From: Alentia gelatinosa
Lineage: Eukaryota; Annelida; Polychaeta; Phyllodocida; Polynoidae
DNA length: 64,000 bases
Reading direction: 5' to 3'
NCBI GenBank assembly: GCA_950022655.1
Contig: OX465584.1
Span: forward strand, 30,167,469 to 30,231,468
In this document: positions 11,963 through 47,895 of the stretch, one piece after another
How positions within the stretch are numbered: position 1 is the first letter of the stretch
How the letters are laid out: each line of letters opens with the position of its first letter
Program-made: the position numbers and the translations under genes
The notes under the pieces: model-generated
What the model saw: the letters and a program-made list of their open reading frames with translations, nothing else
Told to the model about the DNA's origin: nothing
Database searches by the model: none

Positions 11963-13216
11963 TTACTTCTGTTCATGGATTATGGTAGATATCGTTGAAT
12001 TAGCATCTACTTTTCTAACATTCAGATAATCAGTTGTAGAGGACATCACTTGGCTTTGGGAAAGGCCACTCCTGATCCTCACTTGCTGCATCGACTTACT
12101 GATCTTTATTGTCAACAACCTCCGGAACCTCCTCCCACTCATGCAGTAGAGTAAGAAGTTAATAGCTGAGTTGATAGTCACAAACATGTTAGCCACAGTT
12201 GCCATGTATGCAAAGTATCGCCAATCCATGATGAATTCTCGGTCATATGTCTTGATGGTACGAAGGATGCGAAACATTGCATCGGGTAATTGACAGAAGA
12301 TAAATGTTCCCACAACAAGAGCCACTGTCTCCGTCATGTGCTGATTAACATTAGTCGACACTTGCTTCTTCTCCCTGGTTTTGAAAACCAACTTTGATTG
12401 ATGAATTACCTGGAGTAGCTTCGCATTGAGAGCTGAAAGAATAAGTACTGGCCCAACTGATCGGAACATGAAACAGGCTAGGGTTTTGTAGAAGAGGTTG
12501 TAGTAATAATTTGTAATGAGAGGAACAGGCACTGCTTCCAACTCTCGAAGATCCGGGCACATGTGAACCGGCATAGTCTGCACCCGAAGCTCGAGATGAC
12601 AAGGCAGGTTGAAGAGACATGCTGCTATGAAAATGAGAGCCATCCACTGGCGATTGTGCCGTTTGGTCAGGGTAGCTTTTGCTTTTAATGGTCTACAAAC
12701 TGCATAATATCTCTCACTTGTTACCAATAGAATCAACCACACTCCTGTGGTCTGGGTGGTGTTGGCCAGTGGCCAAACCATTCGAGCTTTACAGTATGGG
12801 AGAAACCAGACGATATTAGCAAAGCTATCGTCATAGCTATACAATGTTTCTAGGGTTTGGAAAAAGAAGCAGTTCATCAAATACAGAGAGTCTGTAACAG
12901 AAAGCATCCTAAGTACCGCTGCATTTTTCATCTCTCCGAGAATCTGGAAGGACATGATGTTTCCAAGAATCCCAAAAGCTATGATGAAAGGCAAGAAATA
13001 CACATCCACAGCATACCTGAATATTCTGTAATCCGGTCCAAATACTTTGACCCCCAAAGGACATGCTGTAATGTTCTGCGAATCGAACACCATCCATGCT
13101 GTTTCGTTCGAGATATTGGAAGTAAAGGAAGTTTGCTGTGTTGGTGTCGGTAATGGTGAATTGGTCAGTTTGAGTGCTACGTGGCTGTCCGCCATGTTTC
13201 CCGCGTTTTGTTCCAA
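11963..13216 (-). CDS. Rhodopsin-class GPCR, peptide-receptor-like, intronless
   Basis: A single uninterrupted frame of 417 residues. Seven hydrophobic segments are visible at about 72-94, 100-124, 145-168, 190-205, 240-266, 296-318 and 334-359. Class-A landmarks are GN (85-86, TM1), Cys142 and Cys220 for the extracellular disulfide, ERY in place of DRY (168-170), FxxCQLP in TM6 (305-311) and NSAINFLLY in place of NPxxY (349-357). N-glycosylation sequons sit at N34, N37 and N48. The long N-terminus without signal peptide and the Ser/Thr-rich tail are typical. The first Met (13216) is used because the upstream sequence is low in coding character. The overall pattern suggests an FMRFamide/neuropeptide-type receptor at the plasma membrane coupling to G proteins. 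The ligand cannot be told from sequence. The lack of introns, unlike the neighbouring genes, suggests a retroposed or lineage-expanded receptor. Confidence 0.88.
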   Translation of the reverse strand: MEQNAGNMADSHVALKLTNSPLPTPTQQTSFTSNISNETAWMVFDSQNITACPLGVKVFGPDYRIFRYAVDVYFLPFIIAFGILGNIMSFQILGEMKNAAVLRMLSVTDSLYLMNCFFFQTLETLYSYDDSFANIVWFLPYCKARMVWPLANTTQTTGVWLILLVTSERYYAVCRPLKAKATLTKRHNRQWMALIFIAACLFNLPCHLELRVQTMPVHMCPDLRELEAVPVPLITNYYYNLFYKTLACFMFRSVGPVLILSALNAKLLQVIHQSKLVFKTREKKQVSTNVNQHMTETVALVVGTFIFCQLPDAMFRILRTIKTYDREFIMDWRYFAYMATVANMFVTINSAINFLLYCMSGRRFRRLLTIKISKSMQQVRIRSGLSQSQVMSSTTDYLNVRKVDANSTISTIIHEQK

Positions 13217-14759: not shown

Positions 14760-15209
14760 CCTTTTTTTCTTTTTTTTCACTTTTTTATTGAAACATCATA
14801 GTTTATCTTACACCATTCCAGTTATGTATCATCACATATCATTTTCCTGATGTCCAATAGCTCAGGTTGGGACTTCAACTATAGAGTTAGTTGATTTTCA
14901 TAGTCCTACCATAACACTTATTCAGTAGTACATGGGTATCATCTTGTATACACATAACTGAGCAAAGCAAGATAAAATAAAACTAATATCATATAAAGGT
15001 ACTCAATAAGTCACTACTCCGGCTTGTTCCAGGATAGTAAAACTAGAGTCAAGTCACAAAACATTACCATAGGTGAAACGACAAGTCTAAAGCAAAAGCC
15101 ATCATAATACAATGAGTAAGATATCATTAAAGCGAGCAAAGAGAGAGAGCCAAACCCCGATACACACATATATACAGGAAAACATCAGCAAGAGAAGGAG
15201 GGTAGTAAT

Positions 15210-18058
15210 TTATAAACGGTCAAGGCTATTCCAGAGTTTCGTTTTTTTTAGTGACTTGAAAGCTTTATATGTCTCTGTATTTCTAACCAATGCTGGTTGT
15301 TGGTTCCATAGACTTCCACCATTAAAATGTAACGAGTTCATGTATGCAGTACAGTTGGGCTTAAAAACGGTCAAAACTGGAGCATTAAACAGTCTAGTTT
15401 GTCTTTTTCCAAAATCTATAAACATTGGGTCCCTGGATCTCTTATACATAAAATTCATTAAGTGTGAGCTCCTCCTTTCAACCAAATAGGGAATACCTGC
15501 CCACTTGTGTAAATTTCTAATAGATGTATACCTCGGGGTCTTCAGACATATCTTTAAAAATCGGTTTTGTAGTAACTGTAGGGTAGAAAGATACTTAGCA
15601 GGACTTTTATTAAAAAGGACATCGCCGTAATCAAAATGCGGTAAGATGACTGTTTTATAAATATTAATAGCAGCATTTTTTGAAAGATATGAGCGCATTT
15701 TTGACAGTTGATAAATTCTATAGCTTACAGTTAGCTTTATGTGAGAAATATGGTGTCTGTAATCTAAGTTAGTATCGAGATGGACTCCGAGATACTTGTA
15801 AGAATATACCTTTGCTAATTGTATATTGTCAATTGACACATTCAGGTCATTTTGAACATTTCCTCTATTAAAGTTATAATACATACATTTCGTTTTCTTA
15901 ATATTAATAGATAACTTATTTTGCTGGCACCATGTATGTAACATATCAAGATCCAATTGTACACCTGTGTAAAGTTCAGGCTGGGTATTCCCGTGCATAT
16001 ACAAAACAGTATCATCAGCGTATAACAATAGTCTCGAATTATTTATAACTTTTGATAAATCATTAATGTAGATTAGGAAGAGGAGGGGACCCAAAATCGA
16101 GCCCTGTGGGACACCTGTTTTAATACTTCTATAGTCAGAGACTATATCATTTGTACTTACACACTGTCTTCTCCCTTCTAAGTAATTTCTAAACCAATCC
16201 AAAAGTGTTCCCTGAATACCATAATTTTTAAGTTTTAATAATAAAATTTCGTGATTAACCATGTCAAAAGCCTTCATAAAATCAATATAAACTGCTAAAG
16301 TATTTTTGCCCAAATTTCTGTTAATTAAAATATCATCCATAAGTTTCCCAACTGCTTCTATACTAGAGTGCCCAGGCCTAAAACCAAATTGATTCGGGGT
16401 TAAAATTTCATTATTGTCCAAATATTTCAAAAGTCTTGAACGTATTATCTTCTCCATAACCTTACTAATAATAGGTAGTAATGATATAGGTCTTAGGTTA
16501 CCACACGAAAATGGGTCCCCTTCCTTCGGGATCGGCCGAATCACTGCGGTCTTCCAAGCAACAGGAATATCAGCATTTTCAAAAACACATGAGAACAAAC
16601 TCACAAAAATAGCTGGAACAAACATCAAAGTATCTCTTAATACTCTGGCATTAATTCCCTCCAACATCGATTGTTTGTTTATTTTTAGCTCTCTCGCAAT
16701 GCTCACAATATCCTCGGTCGAGACCCCAACACCATCAAGTGTTGTGTCTCGTTGGTCTTCATATGGCTTCCAGGGAAGGAACATATCCCCTGCTAATTTT
16801 CCCCCTATTTCATTAAAATATCTATTAATATAATTTGGAGTGTTTTCGGTTGATATAAAACCAAGATCATTTTCTTTTAGTCTAAGTATCTTGTCTATAA
16901 TTCTCCAGAACTTCCGATGGTCGTTTTTGTTAATCTCTAACTGATCTATAGTATAAGTCTGCCTCGCCTTCTTCACCATGTAGTTTGCTCTATTTCGTGC
17001 CTCCCTCGCATTTTGCCAGTCAACAGGTAATCTTGTTCTCTTTGCACGTTTTAATAATGTATTTTTATCTCTGATAACTTCAATAACCTCTCTAGTTAAC
17101 CAGGGTTCATCGTCTATTTTGACAGAAAATTTCCTAAATTTACAGTCCTTGTCTAGGAAACCATTAATAACCCCTAATATGTAAAGCCATTTCTCATCTG
17201 CGGTTGTTAACCAATAGAAATTCTCCCAGTCATAATTTTTTAAATAGGATTCATATGCAGTAGAATCATATTTGATATATGACCTACCATTTACAACTTT
17301 CTTTTTTTTCTTGATTAATTGGGATTTTTTTGTCAAATAAATCATTTGGTGGTCGCTATAAGTATCGACTAATACACCAGTGTCTAAAATATTATTTGCA
17401 TTTGTAAAAATTAGGTCTATGATCGAATCGTTTTCCGAAAATCTAGTAGTATCACTTATACATTGTCTTAAGCCTAATTGACATAATTCTTCTAAAAGAA
17501 AACACACATCATGATTCATTTTATCCCTTATATTAATATTAAAGTCCCCCAACAAGATAATCTCAGCTGAAGTTGTGTCTTCAATTATTTTAATAGTGTC
17601 CACTAAAATAGATACGAACTCTCTAATATTCCCCTTGTTAGGCCTGTATATATTACCTATAATCAGCTCCTTCGCGAGTCCTTTGGACAGTTGAACGATT
17701 TGTATCTTGATATCTTTGGTGCTAGCATTTAAGTGAGAGAATTTAATATGATCATAGTTGTATTCGTCCCTTATGTACATACAAAGTCCCCCCCCCCCCC
17801 TATTTTAGGTTTATTATCATTAATATTATCCCTCCAGGTTCTGTCCCATCTGATCTGATTATATGTTTTAAGTTGATAATCAAGGTGGGAGTCATCCTCT
17901 ACCAGCCATGTTTCCGAAAAGGTTAATACATCCCATAGACTATCTTTATTATGTAGGATAATCGATTCATATTTGGCGCGGAGGCTACGCACGTTCGCAT
18001 GATTAATTTTGAAACCCTTAAGCTTAGTAACATTTGACAATTCCTTCAATACAGACAT
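15210..18058 (-). CDS. LINE ORF2: APE endonuclease plus reverse transcriptase, frameshifted
   Basis: The frame opens at Met 18058 with the endonuclease start (HANVRSL, then FSETWL). It is interrupted at a run of 13 identical bases (17788-17800; G in the coding sense) and continues in another frame to 15210. The second part, 856 residues from its first Met, shows the rest of the endonuclease: YRP (45-47), GDFN (78-81), IDLIFTN (120-126), SDH (142-144). The reverse transcriptase follows: NLRPISLLP near 428, FRPGHS (467-472), IDxxKAFD (499-506), PQGS (558-561) and catalytic YADD (587-590). A C-terminal tail with no RNase H follows. Family role: the endonuclease nicks target DNA and the RT copies LINE RNA from the nick. 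The frameshift is at the classic GGG(L/I)xxY endonuclease position, so an indel in the homopolymer or a sequencing error is the likely cause. Confidence 0.9.
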
Positions 18059-18442
18059 TCTAAATATATAGTTCAGTGAAGATCAACTCCTCGCCAGCAA
18101 TACCATAAGTAAACCATAGATCGATATAACAAGTCATTAGTGACAAAGTGACAAAATTCAAAGTAGTGACAAACACAAGTACCACACAAAACACAAAGAA
18201 AAGAGGGATAATATCGGCCAACTCGGCCATCATCCAACTATGTTCAATTGGATAATTCTAAACAAAAGAAGAGAAAATAAATTGTTTGTGTATGTGTGGG
18301 GCCACGAGGAAACCACGGTAGTCGAGAAAGTACCTGGTTTTTGACCCGTTTAGGCAATTACATGCCAGTTGAGTATCGGGGACAAATCAATCATAATATT
18401 GTCAGACAATAGAATCCTAGGTCATTACTATATTTAGACAGT
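18059..18442 (-). other. Spacer between LINE ORF1 and ORF2
   Basis: A 384-base gap separates the ORF1 stop from the ORF2 Met, longer than in most two-ORF LINEs, where the frames abut or overlap. It contains short pairing blocks such as ATCCAA...TTGGAT (about 18232-18254). No frame of length is present. It might serve internal initiation of ORF2, but nothing in the sequence shows this. Confidence 0.5.
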
Positions 18443-19702
18443 CTATGGGCCGTCTCTGACCCTTTGCAAAAGCTCACCCAACTTGTTTCCTTTCAGAGTA
18501 TCTTTTGAGAATTTGGTAATCTCACCCATATGCAATCCACATCCCCAATATTCATCCTTGGTTGCTTCGAATAGTTTTTTCCCTTTAGTTTGGGACAGTA
18601 TGTCCCGCAGCTGATCGTTTTGGGCGAATTTGTCCTGGAGAATCTGCAGCATACAATCGTCCCGGGCATCTGTCCATGCTTGCGATTTAGGCAGTTTCTT
18701 GGTGAGATATAGGGCTTCCATTGGCTCCGTGGTTCTGAGAATTTGTTTGGCGATATCTTGTGATCCACACATCACGGCTGCCTCATGTTGGTAATATTGT
18801 TCCGCTGAGTGGAAAACTTTGTCGTTTTTCACTATCTTGGTCGGGAAGAGGTTCGAGAGGGGTGCGTGGGAACCTTGAAAAAAGATCCCCTGCTGGTTTT
18901 CAATCGTCTTGATCTCTGCAATCGATAGTCCTTTGGGCAATTGATTTATCTGGCTGTAGTCAAATCTTTTTCCTTCAATGATGATATTAATCCCACGGAC
19001 CTGGCAATTGACATTTCTTTTCCTGGCCACGGCTTGGATTGCACGAAGATCTTTATTCATCCTTTTTTCTTCGATGGATAAATCGTCTGAGATATTTACC
19101 CTTCTCCATCTTTGTATCCCCCGTAGGCGGCTAATGTTTTTATAGATCAGGGCCTTGGCGTTAGCACTTATAAGTGTGACAACAATCGACCGAGCCCGGC
19201 CTTGTTGTGGTCGGCCTCTTCTATAAATGGATTCGATGATTGCGTCGCTCCCATCGAGACCAATGTCATTTAGTAGTTGGCTAAACCTGTCTCTCAGGTT
19301 CTCGTCCACTTCTTCCTTTAACCCGTCAATAATCAGAACTTTTCGCTTTTGTAGATTTTCCAATTTAAGCGTACGATCGTCCATGTTAGCTACCACCTGT
19401 GTTGTATCATCTGCGATTTGTTGGAGGAGTGCAATGTCATTTTCCTGGGTTATAACCGATGTTTCGATGTCATCTAATTTATCCACAGTCTTATCATGAT
19501 TCGTTTTCAGGGTCGCTAAGATGTCCGCAGTATCCTTTTGTAACTTATCCGCATTATCCATTCTTGATACAAGCTTGTCCAAGAGTGTAGAAGATTTCTT
19601 TACCGTGGATTCACATAGGGCGAGTCTGCCTTCAACTTCGTTCAGTCTGCCTATAATCTCACGGTTGGATGCATCTGCACTTAGCTTCGAAGTTGCCGGC
19701 AT
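18443..19702 (-). CDS. LINE ORF1 protein with C-terminal NADAR (YbiA-like) domain
   Basis: 419 residues. Residues about 10-120 are charged heptad-like sequence (coiled coil, trimerisation in L1 ORF1p). Residues about 121-250 resemble the L1 ORF1p RRM and C-terminal domain: KVLIIDGLKEE, YRRGRPQQGRARSIVV, RWRRVNISDDLS. Residues 271-416 match the NADAR/YbiA family in order: FFQGSHAPLSNLFP (274-287), FHSAEQYY (297-304), W343-AR, LQDKFAQN..LR..L (355-369), E379-KDEYWGCG (382-389) and GNKLGELL (405-412). NADAR proteins elsewhere hydrolyse N-glycosidic bonds: YbiA acts in riboflavin intermediate clearance, and others reverse ADP-ribosylation of guanine. The domain is in frame with no linker stop. 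The upstream in-frame stop lies near 19828 and the first Met is 19702. Codon use looks like ORF2, so the fusion belongs to the element and is not a chance junction. Confidence 0.87.
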   Translation of the reverse strand: MPATSKLSADASNREIIGRLNEVEGRLALCESTVKKSSTLLDKLVSRMDNADKLQKDTADILATLKTNHDKTVDKLDDIETSVITQENDIALLQQIADDTTQVVANMDDRTLKLENLQKRKVLIIDGLKEEVDENLRDRFSQLLNDIGLDGSDAIIESIYRRGRPQQGRARSIVVTLISANAKALIYKNISRLRGIQRWRRVNISDDLSIEEKRMNKDLRAIQAVARKRNVNCQVRGINIIIEGKRFDYSQINQLPKGLSIAEIKTIENQQGIFFQGSHAPLSNLFPTKIVKNDKVFHSAEQYYQHEAAVMCGSQDIAKQILRTTEPMEALYLTKKLPKSQAWTDARDDCMLQILQDKFAQNDQLRDILSQTKGKKLFEATKDEYWGCGLHMGEITKFSKDTLKGNKLGELLQRVRDGP

Positions 19703-19860
19703 CGTGGGCGATATAGGGCGAGTCTCGGGAACTGATTCCGACGAAGGTAAATCTGCCTTCTTTTCTGGCCCAGACTTCGTTGAAGTTTTCCTCTTGTGGG
19801 TTTTGACCTCCCCATTTGTGTCAGAAGGTTAACTTCTAACTAGTAGTCCAAAGTAGTTGG

Positions 19861-21223
19861 TACTAAAATATCCGTAAATGCACTAAGTCCGGTATTTTTC
19901 CTCACACGGCACACACACGCGTCCACAGTAGTTCACTCAGCCATTAAAAGCCTGGATATTGGTAAATCAATTTATAAGCAAAACAACTCTAAATTCATAA
20001 CATAAGATATTAAAATATTGGTCGAGAGGCACTATCTGTGCTCCCTATACAGTTCATACAATTGAATTGAAAATGAATACCTTTATGCTAGGGTCTCATA
20101 CAATTCGTTTATGCTTATCAGTATTTCTCCTTTTAAACTGTTATAACGCTGTAGTTGGTGGGTAGCTCCTTAACTCATCTAAATACAGTTCAGCTTTAAA
20201 TTATTCCTATTGGCTAAAGGAAAACATCAATCCTTTTCTGTCTTAATTAGTTCTATCTGCCTCCTTGTGGTTGATAGGCCTACACATAGACTGTTTTGCC
20301 CTACTATGATAAATCCCCACCACGTTCCCTAACGTCGTCTCTTGTTACGCACAGCTGGCGTCCTTGAGTGCCAGCTCCTGGCGATAAGGTGAGTGAAAAA
20401 CCCTCAGAAAAACACCCCACCCTTCTCCTTCATCACCTGTTAGCGCAGAGAGGTGTTATTTGGTCGGCGCTCCTGAGTCTCAAACCCACAAGAGCAGCTC
20501 TCGAGGCGACCTGCGACCTCAGAACCCACTTTCTCTGCGATGAGGTGAGTTGTTGTCAGCTGGGAATATTTTACTTACAGAACAAAATAATCTATGATGG
20601 CCGGCCGGTTGCTTTGTTAAAGGCCTAGTTGGTGGAACATACGCTCAAGACCTTTTGTTCATTGAATAAAAAAAAGATTAAAAAGGGAGATAAAAAACTT
20701 TATTTATCCCTTAATAATGATGAGACATAGTAGGGATGCTGCAGGTGGTAGGTCACGCATTTCCCACAACCAAAACCAATACTGATGAGATATATTTATT
20801 AGAGCAGTATCAAAAGTGTGACGATGCTACAAAACTGGGATACTCAATTGCCAATGTAGTGTCTTCCCTATCAAGCAAATACCTTAAGTGGAGATATTGA
20901 TATCTGTTTAGTCAGATGATTAATTTGCACAATAAACATTTGCCTACTAGATCACATTGTCCTTACCAAATGTTTGCAAGGCTATCCCGAGTGACGGTTT
21001 ACCGTCCTTATTGCAGAACTGTAACAAGTATCCTGAAAGAAGTGCTAAGCCTGGTACCTTGTTTTGGTGAATTACCCGGTATTCAACTGCTTCGGGGAGA
21101 CTGAGAAACAAGCAAACCATATGGAATGGAGTTAGGATGTGTATTGAGGTTTGAGCCACTGTTTCTTGGTGTGAATGAGGTCAAATTTATTCTCTTTGTT
21201 TTATACAAGAAAAAGTAATTTGA
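19861..21223. other. Intergenic, LINE 5' flank and MITE remnant
   Basis: No supported gene. A small frame at 20368-20628 has two GTGAGT donor-like sites but no similarity. AGCTGGC (20353-20359) and GCCAGCT (20370-20376) form a perfect 7-bp inverted pair. Sequence at about 21085-21210 matches the middle of the CAGGGATGTCAG MITE family (GAGACTGAGAAA, then CCACTGTTTCTTGGTGTGAA), so a partial copy sits there. Confidence 0.5.
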
Positions 21224-23903: not shown

Positions 23904-26900
23904 TTAGGCGGCGCTGGTTCGGGCCATGTGCAGCTCGTCACCGATGGCGTTCTCCTCCGCTTTCTGCAGGTTTTTGATGAGTCGGTCCGTGTTGGGTCTC
24001 AGCGAGATGATCATCCACCCCAAGATGGCCGTCACGCCGCGCACCAGGTTTAACACCCTCCACGTGTTTAACTCCGAAGCCGTCGACTGTAATAAAAAAA
24101 AACACCACAATGAGAGAAGACAATTATAGTAAGGTACAACGCCATGCGCCATGTTTGTGATGATAATGCATGTATAAGAACAAGAGAATTTTATAATATT
24201 TTATTTATTTCAAAAGAGGTGCATCAGACTAGATCATTCTTGCAAGTTGGTTTCAGTGCAGGCCGCATGTGTGGCACGTTAAGCGGTTGCATACATGACC
24301 AGGTATGGAATTTGGAAATAAAAAATGCAGAAAAGGGATGCCGGAGGTTCTCGGGCGTGTTTCTTTAGTCTAGCTGAATTTCTGGCCTCAACATTTTTTT
24401 TATATGTCAACTTATTTACTCCTCAGATTTACATTAATCTAAAAAAAGAAAAGAATGACCATTGTCACGCAAAAGAATCCGCGGGGATCCTAGGCCTATA
24501 TGAGGCATAACCTCTTTTGATAAAAATGAGGATATTTCTATATATAGAAGTATAACTGAGGTATAGAATTGGTGCTATGGAAAACAATTTAGATTTTTTC
24601 CTTTTATCTTTGGTACCTGCCAAATGAACAACACTTGGCCTCTTATATGGAAGTACATTAAATGTAAGTGGTTCTACCTATCTCTGATTATATTCCTGGT
24701 ACACTCATCTTACATGGTTCGCCATTGTTGCAGGTTAGGTTACAGGGGACAGGTTAGGAAAGACAACGTCCCTTATTCAAGGTACTATCTCACCTAAATT
24801 AAGACCTAATCGCCTCGTCTTAAATATCTAGAGGTTGATAATATGGACTTCTACACATATGATTGCAATAATAAGACGGTGCTACGTCTGTGACCTATGC
24901 TAATGTTAAATGCTAAATGTAAATAACTGTATTGTTACAGCCCCGATCCACTGGTTCCCTATCCAACATAGTGGAGCTTTGAGTCTACTTTTTTCAAATA
25001 CATTTTATAATTATCTTTATTTAAACCGTGTGGTCCTTCCCTTCACGTACCGCTGGGTCTGCCCACAGGTTGTCATAGAGTTTGTAGAGACTGATCTTGT
25101 CATCAGTGGCGGCGATGGAGAGACTGAAGACGAGCCCGATGAAGTAGACGAGACAGGACACTGCGCCGTTCTGCAGTGTGAGCGCGCGCACAACGAACCG
25201 CTTGTTGACACAACTCAAATCGTACCTAGAGTAAAAAAAAGATATATAGAATTTTATTAGACAGGAAGGCAAAAATACCCAAGCCTTGGTTTTTATGGGT
25301 TCCGAGATTTGTCCCCAGACTCCATGAAATAGGAAGAAATGTGTGAGTCCCTGGTAAAAATAATCAAGGAAACAAAAGTGTAATCTCTTTTGTTATTGTA
25401 ATTGTTAACTTTAAGTTACTTAATAATTTCATGTATTAATGCTGCTGTGCTAATGTAATTGTATGCATAAATAGTTGTCCATGTCTTTATTGTGGTGCTA
25501 GTAGAACGGTGTCCTGTATTGTTTGCACTGGGATTGTCTTTTTCCTCTATAAAGAGGTGACCATAAGACCTGTATGTTTTCAATGGATTCCATCATTGTG
25601 GATACGTTCGGTAGAAGGTTGATGCATGAGGTATTTATTTACATATCCTCTCCCTCTTTTCACATAATACTGCAAATACATATGCATCCCAAATGGAGAT
25701 CACTTACAATATGAAGCTCTCCCTTTTTTTCCATTCTTTTTTTAAGGATTATGCGTAGTAACTGTATAATGGTATGTCACCGACTCCCCACATAACAGAA
25801 TACTCACCGGTCGAAGGTGGAGACCGTGCAGAAGACGAAAAGAAGGAAGTAGAGCGACTGGACGGGCTGCGCTAGGCGGTAGTAGTAGTTGAGGAAGGCC
25901 GTTGTGCCGGTTGTGTCGATCATAGTAAAAACCATCACGATGTGCCAGAGAGCGAAGCCCGCGAACAACCCGTGACAGAAGAGAGTGAACGTCTTGAACA
26001 CGCGATGTGTCGTCAGGCCGAACTGGATCGTCGTCTTGGACGGCAATTCCGGCGGAAGCTGCGCCATTTTGTGTTGTTCCTCCTCAATGCGACGCGCCAG
26101 CTTCACTTTGTCGGCGGCTTTAAATCCCTCTAGTGGAGAAAAGGGTGTTTTTTTACGAAGAGAAATGGGTTGAATGCACCATGGATAACAGGAAGACTTG
26201 AAAAATGTCAGATTATCATGAATCACATTTATGCCAAACATCTACTCGTTTTATTTAACCTTAGGTGCTAATTTTGTTCACCGCATTTCCCTTTTCCCTT
26301 ACAATAGAGGTTCATCGCCTAAGTTAACTTTTACGCAATTTTTACATTTTACCTCTTATAAAAATGCTTAGATAAAACATATATGATCTGTATATATTAC
26401 AAAGACCGACAAAAATAAATCCCCATAATTACCAGAGAATTACAGGAAATATCTACCACCACATAATTTGCTTATAACAAGATCATCCTAGAAATGGTTT
26501 AGAGGCAGTTGTCGCACCCTTCATGCCCGTTCCCTAAAATATTGACACACTTTTACTTTGTCAGTTAAATGGATATCCGTATGAAAACTAATGGGAACCG
26601 CATTCAAGCTTTATAATCTCAATTCTACGTTGTGGCAGCAGCCGAGAACGTTCATAAAAGTAGGATAGATCAAGTGAAACTTGATTCTTACTTTTTCTCT
26701 CTATAAACATGGTTCCAAGCGGCTCACTGCGCATGGGCGGGGCGCCCAGCGGCGCAGCTTCCCGTTCGTCATCCATGTCCTCCGCCTCCACCACATCGTC
26801 TTTGATTTGGGACAACTCTGCAGCCAAACCAAGCCCATAGTCTGACACCTCGTCACCAGTTTCTCTGTAAAAGAATCATGCACAGTTACACTTCCTAAAT

Positions 26901-46084: not shown

Positions 46085-47895
46085 TTTTTTAGATCATTTT
46101 ATTTAACCTGGCCTTAACAAGGCAAAATATGCCTGTTTTCAGTTAATACCACCATTGATATCACGATACATGTTTGTAAATTGGGCTGTATAACGCGTGG
46201 CTGCTAACTATCTAACATATAACATTCACATTATATCACATAGTACTAGAACATCCAATATGAACAATGTGGTACAGGACATAGGTCATTTCTGTCTGAT
46301 ACAATTCGTAGAAATTATCATTCTTGTTTCTTCACCTATGCATGCCCTTAGCTTAATACTTACAATCATACATAATAATGCGATTCAACATATATAAATA
46401 TACAATTATACAGTAATGGAGCTATGTGTCTGCCTAGGGTGTATTCATGCAAGCAGGATTAGATCTGTAAATCATAAAGTCGATGTAAATAATAAATACG
46501 TCTTGGGGTTATCTTGCTGACCCATTTTTCATTAACCAGTGATCATATTAGTAGTTTTGACGGCTTTTCTTAAGGAAGTCTTTTTCTTTATTTTTAAAAT
46601 GAGGATATGTAGGTAACTGTCTATATTCTGTCGGAAGGCGATTCCATAGGTGGGGACATTTGTATAGCATGCTTCTTTTAAAGATTGATCTTCTCTCAGG
46701 TATCACATTGAGTACAGGAGCATCGTGGAGTCTAGTATATCTGTTTCTCAGTACAAGGTGGCTGTCGTTTTTGCTTCTCTTATAGGCTAATTTGCGCGCT
46801 GCCGAGTCACGTCTTTCACTCAAAAAATTGAGGTTTGCTTCAATGTGTAATTGGGTGTTATTAGTTCTATATGGAAGTTTGAGTGTAATGCGGAGTGCTT
46901 TATTTTGTAGTTTTTATAGTTTGTCAAGAGTTTGTTGGTTTGTATTAATCAAAAGTGGGCCTCCATATTCAGCATATGGTAGAATTTTGGTTTTGTAAAT
47001 GGTTATTGCTTGATCTCTGTTTAAATATTGCCTGATTTTTGCAAATAAGTAAATTTTGTGACCTAATTTACGTGACATCTCTTTCTTATGTAATTCATAC
47101 GTCATTTTTTGATCCAACCTTACTCCCAAATAGTCGAACTGGTTTACATATTTGATGTTTTCATTGTTTAAGGTCAATTTGTTTGGTATTTGCAGTTTCT
47201 TTAATTTATTTCTAGTAGCAAAAATCATAGATTTGGTTTTTTTAGTGTTTATCGTCAATTTGTTCCGTTTAGCCCATATACCCAGATTATCTAGGTCAGA
47301 TTGAATGGTATTAGTGGCTGTTCTAATGTTCAATGAGGTGGAGTATACGACTGTATCATCAGCGTAAAGGTTGGAGCTGGCTGAAGTTAGAACGTCTGAT
47401 AGATCGTTGATATAGATTAGAAAGAGAAGTGGCCCCAGGATTGACCCTTGGGGCACACCACAGGATATTGATCTAGGGTTGGATAGAGACTCATTTACTC
47501 TTTTCACATGTGATCTTTCATACAAATAATCATTTAACCAAGCAACTATGTCTTGTTGTAATCCATACTGTTTACATTTCTGTAATAGAATGTAATGTGA
47601 CACCGTGTCAAACGCTTTTGACAGATCTATAAACGTGGCGGCAGTATATTCATTGTTGTTAAGCCCTACAAAAATATTGTCCGTAAAAGCAGCAACTGTG
47701 GAGACAGTTGAGTGCCCTTTCCTGAATCCACCCTGGTTATTGTCAAGGATGCTATTATCTTTAAGGTAAAACGAGATCTGTGAGTGTATGATCTTTTCAA
47801 GCAGTTTCCCTGGCAGTGGGAGTAGTGAAACTGGGCGAAGATTGGTAACATTAAATTGGTCTCCCGATTTTTTCAATGGTTTGTTTTCTTTGTTT
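46085..47895 (-). mobile_element. 5'-truncated LINE, RT region and 3' end
   Basis: The body runs from about 47895, cut before the endonuclease, to a T-rich tract at about 46072-46091 (plus strand) that looks like its A-tail. 5' truncation is usual for target-primed reverse transcription. It differs in protein sequence from the element at 14760-19860, so at least two LINE families are present. Confidence 0.75.
46548..47876 (-). pseudogene. LINE ORF2 fragment, RT with one nonsense codon
   Basis: The upper part (47876-46914, 320 residues) has NLRPVSLLP (12-20), FRKGHS (51-56), IDLSKAFD (83-90), VPQGSILGP (141-149) and catalytic YADD (171-174). A TAA at 46914-46916 interrupts it. The same frame then continues to 46548 with the usual LINE tail (RLHDAPVLNV, LWNRLP). 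Only this one in-frame stop breaks about 440 codons, so the insertion is recent. The endonuclease is absent because of truncation. It is not a functional gene in this copy. Confidence 0.85.

Follow-up and report, generated by a model that had tools for sequence, protein, structure and literature searches.

In 2013 the ORF1 proteins (ORF1ps) that bear an SGNH esterase were called unique among ORF1ps for their enzymatic function (PMC3905857). These ZfL2-1 and CR1 proteins carry an enzyme domain on the accessory protein of a LINE, as does the element reported here. Type II ORF1 has been listed for the L1, CR1, L2 and R1 clades in a paper whose main text contains 0 occurrences of NADAR and of DUF1768 (PMC4120745). 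In 2025 YbiA/NADAR domains were reported in Tx1 LINE ORF1s of Crassostrea gigas, which were found through Repbase, and also in Pol of a Gypsy lineage of Ectocarpus; RNA processing was suggested as the role of YbiA/NADAR in retroelements (PMC12477816). This was the sole paper on NADAR in LINEs found in a literature search that covered few subscription journals, and the same search found no earlier account of the selective constraint, of the esterase-like ORF between ORF1 and ORF2, of a second kind of ORF2 or of the pocket change reported below.

Hydrolysis of ADP-ribosylated guanine has been shown for NADARs from bacteria, from a phage and from an oomycete (PMC11543638, PMC11125620), and the role of animal NADARs is listed as unclear (PMC11125620). 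The nematode protein SNA-3 of SL1 trans-splicing is a eukaryotic NADAR protein that works with an RNP and needs its pocket residues: its NADAR domains were disabled by mutating residues homologous to those critical in YbiA. Unlike the protein described here, SNA-3 is encoded by a host gene, has three NADAR domains and is nematode-specific (PMC9303266).

The present element lies in a 64,000-nucleotide stretch of the genome of the polychaete Alentia gelatinosa (contig OX465584.1), from here on called the window. Like the C. gigas Tx1 LINEs it has a YbiA-type NADAR within ORF1; to that account, as far as it goes, the present analysis adds a copy survey, an analysis of selection and an analysis of the pocket (PMC12477816). 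Since NADAR has been noted in the C. gigas Tx1 ORF1s, the fusion of NADAR to a LINE ORF1 is known in outline, and the preliminary description of the window, for which such a protein would be a new kind of counter-defence, has to give way as to the fusion itself to the C. gigas and Ectocarpus cases (PMC12477816).

The element and its two proteins

In the window ORF2 lies downstream of ORF1, both on the minus strand (positions are those of the window):

14762..19944, minus strand: the complete LINE element, running from ATGGCTGAGTGAAC at its 5' end (19944) to the poly(A) of its 3' end (about 14762)
18443..19702, minus strand: ORF1 as first read, 419 aa (open reading frame list; frame open over 461 codons)
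19346..19687, minus strand: coiled coil, residues 6-119 (single long helix 6-119 in the structure model)
18899..19345, minus strand: L1-ORF1p-like RRM and CTD, residues 120-268
18455..18892, minus strand: NADAR domain, residues 271-416
17781..18058, minus strand: N-terminal part of ORF2, in the window copy in a frame different from the rest (G-run near 17790)
15210..17780, minus strand: ORF2 (endonuclease and reverse transcriptase), 856 aa in the main frame; RVT_1 E=2.1e-42, Exo_endo_phos_2 E=5.7e-7

ORF1 is a LINE RNA-binding protein of type II (L1-like) that is extended at its C-terminus by a NADAR domain. It has the coiled coil, single RRM and CTD of this type in the order and with the fold of the known proteins (2yko); its C-terminal domain has the YbiA fold of the NADAR superfamily and matches PF08719 (NADAR) with 94.4 bits versus a cut-off of 35.1. 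Both the fusion and the order coiled coil, RRM/CTD, NADAR, which the preliminary description had read from the sequence, were thus borne out by the profile search and the structure model.

The element is a LINE retrotransposon with an ORF2 encoding endonuclease and reverse transcriptase, common ends, a poly(A) tail preceded by AATAAA at the 3' end, and dispersed copies. Both ends are common to L009, L010, L013 and L014, each in a single alignment (L012 aligned in two pieces), and among nine copies compared the flanks are unlike one another, which sets the ends at 19944 and about 14762. Target-site duplications were looked for in 9 copies, none of them convincing. In the profile scan of the window ORF2, PF14529 scored above and PF03372 below its cut-off; its best PDB match was L1 ORF2p with 78 bits, R2 reaching 52 bits. 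The siblings L013, L014 and L016 have unbroken ORF2 frames of 957 aa. In the window copy the start of ORF1 is out of frame, L009-like siblings having a Met 38 codons upstream (MGRSKP...); because of this and the break of ORF2 at the G-run we regard the copy as young and slightly damaged. The first bases of the element (ATGGCTGAG...) are repeated in the upstream flank of L010 and L013, and ATG GCT GAG TGA at the 5' end is also a tiny upstream reading frame.

Recurrence and mobility

The genome searched comprises 1.23 Gb in 101 contigs. With ORF1 as query 3729 first-look candidates were obtained, of which 100 were scored; all 100 matched at E <= 1.3e-100 with 41-100% identity, about four fifths near full length and the rest partial, and 72 were free of stops by a hand count of the listing. 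The search with PF08719 gave 3136 candidates, and all 150 that were scored lay above the cut-off. ORF2 followed downstream on the same strand in 18 of 20 full-size loci (none was seen at L015 and L018), and identities of ORF1 and ORF2 to the window ranked alike (rho 0.988; 10 loci hand-picked for long unbroken matches). The fusion is therefore not confined to one copy by chance insertion, which the preliminary description had named as a way to be wrong: it recurs together with ORF2 many times over and in families that have diverged.

Two pairs of loci on different contigs, L013/L014 (99.5% identical over 5234 bases) and L020/L021 (99.7% over 5526 bases), are near-identical over more than 5 kb, which indicates recent mobility. 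Both frames are unbroken in 6 of the 20 fetched full-size loci (L013, L014, L016, L020, L021, L023). Outside this genome, 9 further proteins in the protein database align over ORF1 and NADAR, and 1 more was found by profile; they are 23-34% identical. An ORF1 scan of viral contigs gave no relatives, and alignment A1 had no usable conserved stretch.

We also considered whether related LINEs have swapped in another ORF1, and rejected this. Of 11 loci with a related ORF2 and no listed ORF1, 3 carry NADAR upstream (L137, L140, L142) and 8 have no ORF1 match; five of the latter (L138, L139, L141, L143, L144) were read for frames of at least 70 codons and had nothing ORF1-like, so that 5' truncation is likeliest there. 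At L005 (G000:C2:18938871-18942614) the ORF1 match continues in the same frame, with one internal stop, directly into ORF2 from residue 35, apparently by an internal deletion. ORF1/ORF2 copies of like identity are clustered on G000:C6 (11.29-11.68, 15.75-16.25 and 21.96-22.03 Mb) and on C10 (11.13-11.15 Mb), which suggests segmental or tandem amplification.

Selection on the NADAR domain

The NADAR domain is under purifying selection. Ratios of dN to dS were obtained from Nei-Gojobori counts for 16 hand-chosen pairs of stop-free copies. For NADAR, which the preliminary description had proposed for such a test, the ratio is low in the two pairs that combine many changes with a dS short of saturation: 0.06 for window/L012 (12 nonsynonymous and 38 synonymous changes; dS 0.62) and 0.14 for L022/L023 (dS 0.90). 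All copies in these two pairs already carry Ala308, the residue discussed below. More diverged pairs gave 0.03 (window/L016), 0.03 (L032/L036), 0.10 (L042/L045) and 0.07 (L033/L038), of which only the sign is safe because dS is 1.4-2.5 (2.5 and saturated for window/L016; undefined for some other pairs). Higher values were found for recent pairs with few changes, namely 0.66 for L044/L046 (14N/6S) and 0.45 for L026/L027 (5N/3S).

For RRM/CTD the ratio is 0.03 in window/L012 and 0.03 in L022/L023, and thus equal to or below that of NADAR, which is the higher one in several pairs (e.g., 0.14 versus 0.03 in L022/L023). Invariant positions among 27 hand-chosen representatives number 26 of 146 in NADAR versus 19 of 150 in RRM/CTD. 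The constraint on NADAR is perhaps slightly weaker than that on RRM/CTD.

The NADAR pocket

In the NADAR of P. nicotianae the ligand contacts include E43, K50, R79, W89, R93, E125, D130 and W133 (PMC11543638), which by alignment correspond to E301, A308, K335, W343, R347, E379, D383 and W386 in the window. The residues mutated in SNA-3 correspond, in our reading rather than in an alignment, to E301, W343, D383 and W386. Four positions of the domain lie as follows:

18800..18802, minus strand: Glu301, equivalent to P. nicotianae E43, distal-ribose contact; in 37/37 copies and in 10/10 other ORF1-NADAR proteins
18779..18781, minus strand: Ala308, at the place of P. nicotianae K50, the ADP-ribose-gripping lysine, lost; K in 1/37 copies
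18566..18568, minus strand: Glu379, equivalent to P. nicotianae E125, the last-strand glutamate of the YbiA family; in 37/37 copies
18530..18532, minus strand: His391; in 36/37 copies of its own lineage and 0/10 other ORF1-NADAR proteins

The counts refer to 37 intact rows from the same genome, window included. Left out were L001-L004 and L006-L008 (the window itself or duplicates of L009-L014), L005, L015, L017 and L025 (internal stops) and L019 (split ORF1); the proteins P0011-P0013 were not in this alignment.

The window NADAR resembles those of P. nicotianae (8bau) and E. coli YbiA (2b3w) in fold, ribose-side glutamates, tryptophans and the basic R79 and R93 places. E301, W343, E379 and W386 are each present in 37/37 rows; the R79 equivalent is K or R in 35/37 and the R93 equivalent R or K in 34/37, and at the D130 place D (19) and N (18) are about equally frequent. 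Unlike 8bau and 2b3w the window has A and L at the K50 and K75 places, a histidine (His391) conserved in its lineage, and the fusion to an RNA-binding protein. Among the 37 rows the K50 place is occupied by A21 F4 L3 R3 Y3 M2 K1 and the K75 place by L20 M10 I3 K3 Q1. In the ten ORF1-NADAR proteins from elsewhere, the former is K6 R3 H1 and the latter K in 10/10. Cys388 and Gly393 are present in 37/37 own rows and also in 5/10 and 2/10 of these proteins, for which reason only the histidine of the three is particular to the lineage.

The lysine is largely conserved across the NADAR superfamily, and in the E. coli C7 NADAR it (K95) is essential for efficient hydrolysis of guanine-ADP-ribose, arginine being tolerated in vitro (PMC11543638). 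We found it in 80/80 bacterial NADARs, a narrow control made up of the top 80 of 547, which lie near the phage query, in 18/18 of those outside the lysine-holding retrieval pattern, and in 6/6 phage NADARs. From the outgroup rows we infer that the lysine is ancestral; the tree requires at least 5 changes between K, R/H and non-basic residues at this place. Decay of the putative catalytic residues, which the preliminary description had named as speaking against function, has thus occurred in one part of the pocket, the lysine being lost in most copies, and is absent from the other, the glutamates and tryptophans being invariant in 37/37. Since the latter are invariant and the lysine place variable in a domain under constraint, the ribose end appears frozen and the ADP end drifted or rebuilt.

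Related NADAR-ORF1s in the same genome

Eight further NADAR regions were read, hand-chosen from the 150 for best score and long frames, so that the lysine counts in them are not those of a random sample. Six are ORF1-like (L147, L148, L149, L151, L152, L153), with frames of 565-811 aa (that of L153 is cut at 745 aa by the fetched end) and NADAR towards the C-terminal side; their lysine place holds K in 5 and R in 1. In L147, L148, L152 and L153 a separate frame of 224-278 aa with (G/S)DSR and DG(I/M)H motifs lies between ORF1 and ORF2. Such a middle frame is also found whole in the window's sister loci L023, L024 and L026 (250-258 aa) and shorter or broken, as look-alikes, in L022, L025, L027 and L028; none of 110 codons was seen in the window's subfamily or in L019-L021.

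By its profile match the middle ORF of L148 classes as an SGNH/GDSL esterase (PF00657 25.7 bits versus a cut-off of 23.6; PF13472 31.7 versus 32.9), and the others are likely of the same kind: the other six have no Pfam match above cut-off, and that of L024 has Tyr at the motif His, and a profile of all 7 matches the ZfL2-1 esterase 4c1b with E=6.3e-4. In the window's sister families an SGNH-like ORF thus adjoins NADAR-ORF1, to be compared with the esterase ORF1ps of ZfL2-1 and CR1 (PMC3905857). Unlike in ZfL2-1 and CR1, the enzyme fold on ORF1 is another one, NADAR, and the esterase-like ORF is separate and was not found in the window's subfamily.

L149 (G000:C7:34362500-34366900) has no middle frame and is followed by an L1-type endonuclease (8sp5, 81 bits) and reverse transcriptase (8c8j, 52 bits). 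The window ORF2, about 957 aa in intact siblings, has in contrast a PF14529-type endonuclease, and therefore two or more distinguishable kinds of ORF2 go with NADAR-ORF1s. In the fetched flank of L151 no endonuclease frame was present.

Four long proteins (P0011, P0014, P0015, P0016) join NADAR to a GDSL-like domain, three of them also having a PHD-like finger, all PHD and GDSL matches being below the Pfam cut-offs; their lysine places hold C, S, S and K, respectively. Similar PHD and esterase types of ORF1 occur in CR1 elements (PMC4120745), and these four, known from protein sequences alone, are possibly a second LINE ORF1 architecture. No kinship between the middle ORF and these proteins was found by hhalign. 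The NADAR tree (57 rows) is weakly resolved; it neither rejects (p-AU 0.115) nor demonstrates that the 36 LINE-type rows form a single clade.

Possible function

By analogy with L1 ORF1p, the coiled coil would oligomerise ORF1p and the RRM and CTD would coat the RNA of the element, and each RNP would therefore carry many NADAR domains. In the mechanism that we propose, NADAR would cleave as a ribosyl N-glycosidase, either inside the RNP or during reverse transcription, and its target would be a ribose-linked group of nucleic acid or nucleotides. The ancestral substrate was probably ADP-ribosylated guanine; with the ADP end of the pocket apparently rebuilt in the window lineage (lysine lost, histidine gained) and the ribose end fixed, the present substrate is probably a different one. 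That this type II ORF1 with C-terminal NADAR acts as an altered ribosyl N-glycosidase is a prediction whose chances we regard as evenly poised. Against this, binding could be the role of the invariant glutamates, Asn stands at the D130 place in 18/37 rows, and in the E. coli C7 NADAR the E88A exchange (E43 place, E301 of the window) had only a minor effect in vitro (PMC11543638).

The same Asn and the loss of a lysine essential for efficient ADP-ribosyl-guanine hydrolysis (PMC11543638), missing also from 3/4 of the P0011-type proteins, would suit a NADAR that no longer cleaves and instead reads a ribose-containing group, such as an RNA end or an NAD-derived ligand, or offers the RNP a surface for oligomerisation or for contacts between proteins. 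However, ribose-side glutamates and tryptophans kept in 37/37 rows beside a free ADP-contacting lysine are the reverse of the pattern that ADP-ribose binding alone would keep, and a binding module seems to us on the unlikely side. The variable lysine speaks against the proposal of the preliminary description that a canonical NADAR removes ADP-ribose from element RNA, cDNA or target DNA against a putative PARP-type host defence: 1/37 copies of the window lineage have it versus 80/80 bacterial (best 80 of 547) and 6/6 phage NADARs. This proposal can point to the guanine-ADP-ribose hydrolysis by bacterial, phage and oomycete NADARs (PMC11543638, PMC11125620), to the K or R of the six other ORF1-like NADARs, and to the restriction of human L1 by ZAP/PARP13, which associates with the L1 RNP; for the restriction, however, the zinc finger domain of ZAP alone is sufficient (PMC4441479), and for the window lineage we consider the proposal clearly improbable. 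A chance insertion or decaying passenger without function might be read from the window copy, whose reading frame is shifted where ORF1 begins and again inside ORF2; with purifying selection on NADAR, and NADAR kept in open frames across families 41-58% identical, it is scarcely credible.

Beyond the altered glycosidase itself, we tentatively offer a wider picture that we find plausible and yet short of probable: animal LINEs that have radiated with two or more kinds of ORF2 would have armed their RNA-coating protein with NADAR, often beside an SGNH-esterase-like ORF, and in one branch loss of the lysine and gain of His391 would have re-engineered the pocket. The resulting glycosidase would have a new specificity, for RNA or cDNA of the element itself or for a host nucleotide signal, and would be the trace of an arms race. 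If true, a nucleic-acid- or nucleotide-directed glycosidase would be at work inside a retrotransposon RNP. What is at hand is a recently mobile LINE group of an animal genome; its RNA-packaging protein bears an enzyme domain of the ADP-ribose type that selection has kept and whose pocket has changed. A NADAR under selection on a protein that coats RNA suggests that retrotransposition involves a chemistry of ribose or ADP-ribose. The lysine-bearing and lysine-lacking versions in one genome are a ready pair for probing the function of animal NADARs.

Other NADAR genes and neighbouring sequences

At L146:728-1453 lies a NADAR gene that stands alone (179 bits); its pocket places hold E, K, E, D and W. 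An uninterrupted frame of 1040 aa at L150:224-3343 matches LRAT (29.2 bits, cut-off 24.3), contains many nearly identical repeats and carries at its C-terminus a NADAR in which the lysine is kept. It has the appearance of a host gene, or a domesticated one, more than of a LINE ORF1. The window itself contains, also on the minus strand, a second reverse transcriptase fragment (46914-47876; RVT_1 E=2.2e-36), an uninterrupted rhodopsin-type GPCR frame (11963-13216) and a TMEM237 match (25804-26241), the last two indicating an animal host.
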